A DNA stretch of 64,000 nucleotides, taken from contig NC_015388.1 in the NCBI RefSeq assembly GCF_000195295.1, forward strand, positions 2,108,001 through 2,172,000, written 5' to 3'. Below are positions 13,991-14,925 of the stretch, piece by piece. The first letter of the stretch is position 1. The number at the start of each line of letters is the position of its first letter. The stretch is from Desulfobacca acetoxidans DSM 11109 (lineage in GTDB: Bacteria > Desulfobacterota > Desulfobaccia > Desulfobaccales > Desulfobaccaceae). The notes beneath the pieces are model-generated. The model worked only from the letters and a program-made list of their open reading frames with translations, had not been told where the DNA came from and made no database searches. Both the position numbers and the translations under genes were made by a program.

Positions 13991-14076
13991 TGAAAACAGT
14001 GAGCAGTGAGCGGTGAGCAGAAAAAGCATTATTGTGAGCAGCAGCCACGGTTCTGTTTTCATATTTCGTTGTGATC
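13991..14076. repeat. Dispersed repeat A, copy 1, in the rny upstream gap
   Basis: A block with GCAGTGAGCGGTGAGCAG and AAAAAGCATTATTGTGAGCAG, ending in ATTTCGTTGTG, which is repeated at 35641-35754 between groES and groEL. The copy there has about 30 extra bases holding a hairpin. The remaining 13695-13990 and 14077-14211 show no gene that I can support. Confidence 0.75.
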
Positions 14077-14211: not shown

Positions 14212-14403
14212 GTTCACTCCCCCGCGAAAGTGCCGTGTCGACAGTACGTTCTTGAACCGACGCTAGTCATGTGGGTCTACCATGATTCTCCTTTAGGCTA
14301 TCCCGGTAGGGATCTGCACACGGGAGTCTGACTGGTGTCCCGGTTCAAAATTGTTGGATCAATAATGGTTCTGCCAATCACGATCACCGCAGGGGAAGTG
14401 AAC
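14212..14403 (-). ncRNA. ssrS: 6S RNA
   Basis: A 192-base RNA that would bind RNA polymerase holoenzyme and damp sigma-70 transcription. The 5' end (GTTCACTTCCCCTGCGGTG, read on the minus strand from 14403) pairs with the 3' end (CACTTTCGCGGGGGAGTGAAC, ending at 14212) with a few wobbles, giving the closing stem. A U-run (GTTTTAAG) follows the 3' end. Internal parts such as GCCTAAAGGAGAA, GGTTCAAG and ACGGCAC resemble 6S consensus blocks. Position directly after zapA is the conserved proteobacterial arrangement. The first 20 bases overlap the 3' end of zapA, so its promoter must lie inside zapA. Confidence 0.85.
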
Positions 14404-14683
14404 TTTTGGTCTCTATCAGATGAATAAGATGCTTTGACTTGGATTCAATCTCCAAGTGGAGTTTTTGGTTATCCTCCTTGATCTCTAAATAATCAAAGGC
14501 TAAATTGAGCGCAGTCATTATAACAATTTCTTCATTTGATGCCTTTGGTAGCGCCCTTCGAATCTCCCGTATTTTCTCATCAACCAGTTGAACGACGCTC
14601 TCCAATCGGGATTGAGTCGTATCGCTCTTCAAGGTTAGCGGTCGTCCGAGTATTTCAAATCGTTTGGTGATTGGCGTAGAAAT
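14384..14683 (-). CDS. zapA: Cell division protein ZapA, probable AUU start
   Basis: Small FtsZ-bundling protein at the division ring. The recognisable core runs KRFEILGRPLTLKSD, followed by a coiled-coil C-terminal half. The first ordinary start in frame is TTG at 14632, which would cut off the conserved N-terminal beta strand. In-frame codons extend upstream to a stop at 14689-14687 with no ATG, GTG or TTG. ATT at 14683-14681 lies eight bases after GGAG (14695-14692), which overlaps the zapB stop codon. The AUU start is therefore inferred; ACG or AUC nearby are alternatives. This gives 99 residues, normal for ZapA. Confidence 0.85.
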   Translation of the reverse strand: MSTPITKRFEILGRPLTLKSDTTQSRLESVVQLVDEKIREIRRALPKASNEEIVIMTALNLAFDYLEIKEDNQKLHLEIESKSKHLIHLIETKSSLPLR

Positions 14684-14694
14684 AGATTACTCTC

Positions 14695-14925
14695 CTATTT
14701 CTCTTTGCCCAACACTTCTAATTTATTTAACAATTGGTCAATACGCTGCCGTACTACATCCCGTTCTTTGCTCATTTTATTGAGGGCTTCCCGGGTTTCT
14801 CCCAAGGCCTTCTCTTGTTCATCCAACATCTTCATCAAGGTGGCATTTTCAGTCTGCAAGGCCTGATACTGTGCCAGTATCTGCTCTAATTTACCTTCCA
14901 AAACCTCGAATAGCTTTAAAGCCAC
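14695..14925 (-). CDS. zapB: ZapB-like cell division coiled-coil protein
   Basis: A 76-residue, almost wholly coiled-coil protein beginning LKLFEVLEGKLEQIL, like ZapB, which links ZapA-FtsZ to the chromosome terminus region. GTG is the start, with GAGG seven bases upstream. Its TAG stop overlaps the Shine-Dalgarno of zapA, so the two are almost surely co-translated. Assignment rests on size, heptad pattern and neighbour. The 270 bases upstream of it hold no gene I can support. Confidence 0.75.
   Translation of the reverse strand: MALKLFEVLEGKLEQILAQYQALQTENATLMKMLDEQEKALGETREALNKMSKERDVVRQRIDQLLNKLEVLGKEK

Follow-up and report, generated by a model that had tools for sequence, protein, structure and literature searches.

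To our knowledge, few bacterial genes are known to begin with an AUU start codon. Such starts are invisible to gene callers that accept only ATG, GTG and TTG, and their number is therefore probably underestimated. Two examples from Escherichia coli, infC and pcnB, are cited in PMC1780047. The first gene, infC, carries a near-cognate, AU-type start behind a good Shine-Dalgarno sequence and is autoregulated by its own product, IF3, which rejects the start codon of its own gene. In the case of pcnB, AUU stands on a gene outside the translation machinery and probably limits the product (PMC1780047). In Staphylococcus aureus, cvfC1 (AUU) and ccpN (AUA) have conserved non-canonical starts with an output of about 10% of that of AUG in poor medium, as established by profiling and reporters (PMC13009471). 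With regard to the coupling of neighboring genes, two models are reviewed in PMC12548453, namely RNA unfolding and ribosome scanning (re-initiation).

The cell-division gene zapA of the sulfate-reducing bacterium Desulfobacca acetoxidans shares individual features with each of these systems. As in infC, a near-cognate start of the AU type follows a good Shine-Dalgarno sequence, but the zapA product is not an initiation factor; the comparison with infC drawn in an earlier note on this DNA consequently holds for the codon type and fails for autoregulation, as ZapA is not IF3. The likeness to pcnB lies in the use of AUU on a gene that does not serve translation, although gene and organism differ, and we know of no coupling hairpin for pcnB. 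Similar to cvfC1 and ccpN, the non-canonical start is conserved among relatives, whereas the S. aureus genes have an extended Shine-Dalgarno sequence and zapA has AGGAG alone (PMC13009471). The RNA-unfolding type of coupling has in common with zapA a short gap, a structure over the downstream start and a 5' arm within the upstream gene, while a near-cognate start serving as part of the stem, as predicted for zapA, is not described in the available text of that review (PMC12548453). AUU starts as such are already known; the zapA case appears to be new, possibly with a twist in its hairpin, and among the titles of the open-access literature no report of zapA with an AUU or other non-AUG start was found. 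If the conserved AUU is true, the level of this Z-ring protein would be governed by initiation fidelity (IF3) together with ZapB synthesis.

The locus lies on the minus strand of the window, that is, the whole 64,000-nucleotide stretch of D. acetoxidans DNA that was analysed, in the order zapB (14925-14695), zapA and 6S RNA. The frame of the partner gene zapB, which opens with GTG and ends with the stop TAG at 14697-14695, is located directly upstream of zapA and scores 36.1 bits against Pfam PF06005 (cut-off 31.5). The following frame is assigned to ZapA by a score of 64 bits against PF05164 (cut-off 23.8), with the match beginning at residue 11 when the frame is numbered from 14686. Read from ATT at 14681-14683, zapA occupies 14384-14683 and comprises 99 codons plus TGA. 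The gap between the zapB stop and this ATT is 11 nt, and it includes a TAA in the zapA frame (14687-14689), followed by TCT, just upstream of the start. The Shine-Dalgarno sequence AGGAG (14692-14696) overlaps the zapB stop, as the earlier note had described, lies 8 nt before ATT and is identical in all four genus members examined; an exact pattern of the common 16S tail, which includes the anti-Shine-Dalgarno sequence, had no match in the D. acetoxidans genome (G000), where the rRNA may be missing from the copy searched or may have a different tail. The first ordinary start in the frame, TTG at 14630-14632, is codon 18 and falls beyond the conserved N-terminal segment of the protein, and the sequence contains no ATG, GTG or TTG in the zapA frame before it, both in agreement with what had been noted earlier. 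A single-sequence structure model of ZapA was poor (mean pLDDT 67.2, below 50 at residues 1-6 and 12-14), with a pair of strands hinted at around residues 10-15.

The proposal that zapA begins at a rare AUU is supported by a comparison of four genomes of the genus, D. acetoxidans included. ATT occupies the start position in all four, within a site in which ATAGGAGA is followed by four bases with some variation and then by TCT, ATT and TC, and none of the four has an in-frame ATG, GTG or TTG upstream of the conserved ZapA core. An in-frame stop is found close upstream of zapA in two of the four species. The genes have diverged to pairwise nucleotide identities of 66-87%, and the proteins of the three relatives are 68-75% identical to that of D. 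acetoxidans. Across codons 2-8, variation affects six third, two first and three second codon positions, with ATT remaining invariant; such third-position-rich variation behind an unchanging ATT is as expected for coding from ATT. zapA thereby combines an AUU at Shine-Dalgarno spacing, the lack of a usable canonical start and retention of the AUU within the genus. On these sequences, no reading other than an AUU start yields a complete ZapA in each of the four species, and translation of zapA very probably starts at the AUU at 14683.

A wider survey located zapA in each of the family's seven genomes and in 28 of the order's 29, and a search of named genome contigs yielded three matches, all distant. 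Outside the genus, an ATT start was found in none of the 24 other loci of the order. In the sister genus (three loci), the start region reads CTG-GTG, with AGGAG 10 and 13 nt upstream. Of the 21 loci of the order's other family, 10 display TTG at -9 or -10 codons from the core, 3 have GTG at -6, and 8 combine ATA at -11 with a GTG or TTG adjacent to the core. An ATG within 20 codons before the core was detected in only 4 of 28 loci, one codon before it in each case. Among distant loci (23 given, of which 12 were unaligned and left out), all 11 that could be aligned have a canonical start 5-11 codons before the core, a range that compares with 8 codons for the ATT of D. acetoxidans. Given the TTG-, GTG- and CTG-type starts across these loci, weak zapA starts are, judging by their codons, usual in this order, and AUU is the extreme case.

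The ATA of the other family was considered as a possible second near-cognate zapA start. In 8 of its 21 loci (L008, L009, L011, L016-L019 and L028), ATA lies 7 nt after GGAG or AGGAG with no TTG nearby. However, the same stretch doubles as the end and stop of zapB, and in six of the eight loci a GTG is preceded at 9 nt by a GGAG or AGGAG of its own, so an AUA start in this family is only a lead, possible and not compelling. The zapB frames in this comparison were picked by a longest-frame rule, and the pick for L020 looks wrong.

As a control, infC was examined in the same order and found in 27 of 29 genomes, with no match in the genus member G002. A total of 28 infC loci were read, of which 26 cover the N-terminus (L034, which is D. 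acetoxidans, L035-L058 and L061). At the Shine-Dalgarno-spaced position, the start is ATC in 23 and ATA in 3 of these 26, with an ATG two codons upstream in one; in D. acetoxidans, ATC is located 7 nt after GGAGG. The presence of ATC or ATA in every readable locus indicates that near-cognate starts are in use in this order.

Beyond what the earlier note described, the whole zapA initiation site lies within a predicted hairpin. AGAAATAG, formed by the end of zapB and its stop, pairs with CTATTTCT, formed by the spacer, ATT and codon 2, giving a perfect stem of 8 bp around a 9-nt loop, which a G-U pair lengthens in the predicted fold. The 5' arm (14694-14702, minus strand) comprises the end of zapB, the stop TAG and one further G, and the 3' arm (14678-14686, minus strand) comprises the spacer TCT, ATT and TCT; their cores, GAAATAG and CTATTTC, are identical in all four species, so that a 7-bp core stem is present in each and the loop is partly variable. 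In random 40-nt segments of the window, perfect stems of at least 8 bp occur in 0.4% and of at least 7 bp in 1.8%. Folding predicts that the zapA start codon and the greater part of the Shine-Dalgarno sequence are paired in all four species, and the existence of a hairpin that encloses the zapB stop, the Shine-Dalgarno sequence and ATT appears quite probable on the basis of these models. Shuffling controls for the stretch -35 to +20 gave modest z values of -2.96, -1.65, -0.93 and -2.16 for the four genus loci, and -1.50, -0.07, -1.12 and -1.37 for -60 to +30, the signal depending on the stretch folded and fading when it is longer. When the sister genus is included, z for -35 to +20 is negative in all seven loci (-0.93 to -2.96), with a mean of 0.03 for 17 control starts of the window.

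Two features expected for coupling are seen at this locus, namely the 11-nt gap between stop and start and a predicted structure over the zapA start with one arm in zapB. The best overall explanation, to which a probability of roughly 0.6 is assigned, combines the AUU start, the hairpin and weak translation coupled to zapB. According to this model, AUU, the Shine-Dalgarno sequence and the zapB stop would be folded together, the end of zapB providing the 5' arm, and a free ribosome would meet a closed zapA site with a weak start codon. A ribosome arriving at the zapB UAG would have to open the stem, because the terminating UAG sits in it; once the hairpin is opened, either the same ribosome would re-initiate or another would initiate at AUU. 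ZapA output would then be low, proportional to completed ZapB synthesis and probably influenced by IF3. Sensitivity of zapA initiation to IF3, which is suggested by the known biology of AUU starts, is considered likely, and the available features lean slightly toward a weak translation of zapA that requires ribosomes to complete zapB.

The strongest competing explanation accepts the AUU start and regards the hairpin as incidental, with the weak codon keeping ZapA low as in pcnB and without strict coupling to zapB. It draws on the evidence for AUU given above and on the absence of covariation in the stem (0 of 9 pairs), the arms being invariant across only four species. Moreover, the order's other family commonly has weak starts (TTG, GTG) without such a hairpin, a comparable one not being evident in most of its zapA loci. 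On the other hand, both arms are invariant within the genus, in the form of GAGAAATAGGAGA and TCTATTTC, while the four intervening bases vary; even the non-coding spacer TCT does not change. Of 542 aligned bases in the four species, 58.7% are invariant, and two of the seven invariant runs of at least 8 bases hold the hairpin arms. This invariance argument is weakened by the observation that about one quarter of the codons with an invariant amino acid are also invariant as codons (12 of 52 in zapB, 15 of 55 in zapA).

Further evidence against an incidental hairpin comes from the start codon itself and from the sister genus. Among six codons tried at the start position, the local fold is most stable with ATT in each of the four species, with energies for ATT and ATG of -7.2 and -3.5 kcal/mol in D. 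acetoxidans, and of -8.4 and -5.7, -11.0 and -7.3, and -7.9 and -4.2 kcal/mol in the others. In all three loci of the sister genus, a second, unrelated stem encloses the Shine-Dalgarno sequence and the CTG/GTG start region. With these points in view, an incidental hairpin is regarded as unlikely, although it is the rival that survives best. A bolder extension of the coupled reading, offered tentatively, is that AUU may have been chosen because it also forms part of a helix, in which it pairs with the stop codon and the last lysine codon of zapB. With AUG, GUG or UUG in its place, the switch would be weaker, and in the sister genus a differently built hairpin would play the same role.

A second alternative keeps neither the AUU nor the complete N-terminus: translation would begin at TTG 14632 and give an 82-residue ZapA, the upstream frame being untranslated. 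In favor of this reading, TTG is one of the ordinary start codons, and the longest open reading frame listed by a standard caller begins here. However, no Shine-Dalgarno match of at least 4 bases precedes it, and the three sister species carry TTA, CTG and CTG at its position, their next ordinary start being codon 33 or 34. A start at the TTG would remove FEILGRPLT, a conserved segment that can be aligned with solved ZapA chains; since the best alignment to a solved chain begins at residue 9 as numbered from ATT, initiation at codon 18 would truncate the core of the family. The changes upstream of the TTG are also mostly at third positions or preserve the residue, in the manner of coding sequence. 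The earlier note had named a start at this TTG as one of two findings that would overturn the AUU reading, and such a start is judged very unlikely.

Another explanation assigns the hairpin to a repressor such as CsrA, which would bind there and block the Shine-Dalgarno sequence. The genome of D. acetoxidans contains a csrA gene, and the GGA inside the zapA Shine-Dalgarno sequence presumably resembles a CsrA site. Nevertheless, this GGA is the only one and is predicted to be mostly paired in three of the four genus species, and no other pointer to such a site was seen; repressor binding is accordingly rated still lower than the TTG start. Even less probable is the synthesis of ZapA as a fusion to ZapB through a frameshift or a bypass event at the zapB stop, an idea that draws on the position of zapA in a different frame just downstream of that stop and on the hairpin located at it. 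Considering that a TAA in the zapA frame separates the zapB stop from ATT in D. acetoxidans, and that L002 has a stop only a few codons farther upstream, a simple frameshift ahead of the zapB stop would yield no fusion, and a fusion would in addition leave the normally spaced Shine-Dalgarno sequence unexplained. A sequencing error that masks an ATG, or a broken zapA, has nothing in its favor beyond the absent ATG and comes close to being negligible, since the identical ATT in four separate genomes, with no ordinary in-frame start before the core, makes a read error very unlikely, the three sister species contradict the notion of an ATG at this place in close relatives, the frame is intact with 99 codons in all four members, and the published error rate of the D. 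acetoxidans sequence is below 1 in 100,000 at 350.7-fold coverage (PMC3156406).

The pattern found at zapA suggests a search rule for further genes of this kind, namely a conserved N-terminus without an ordinary start and with a Shine-Dalgarno-spaced AUU, AUC or AUA that is kept in relatives.

Several additional observations concern the downstream end of the locus. The 3' end of zapA, with its stop at 14386-14384, and the beginning of the 6S RNA gene (Rfam 6S match, 14398-14215) overlap at 14384-14398 on the minus strand, and the terminal part of zapA contains a 22-nt run that does not vary among the four genus members. The gathering score for 6S RNA is reached in six of the seven loci of the family, L002 being the exception. 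Between the 6S RNA and the next minus-strand gene, a short head-to-tail repeat, AGTGAGCAGTGAGCGGTGAGCAG, is present at 13998-14020.
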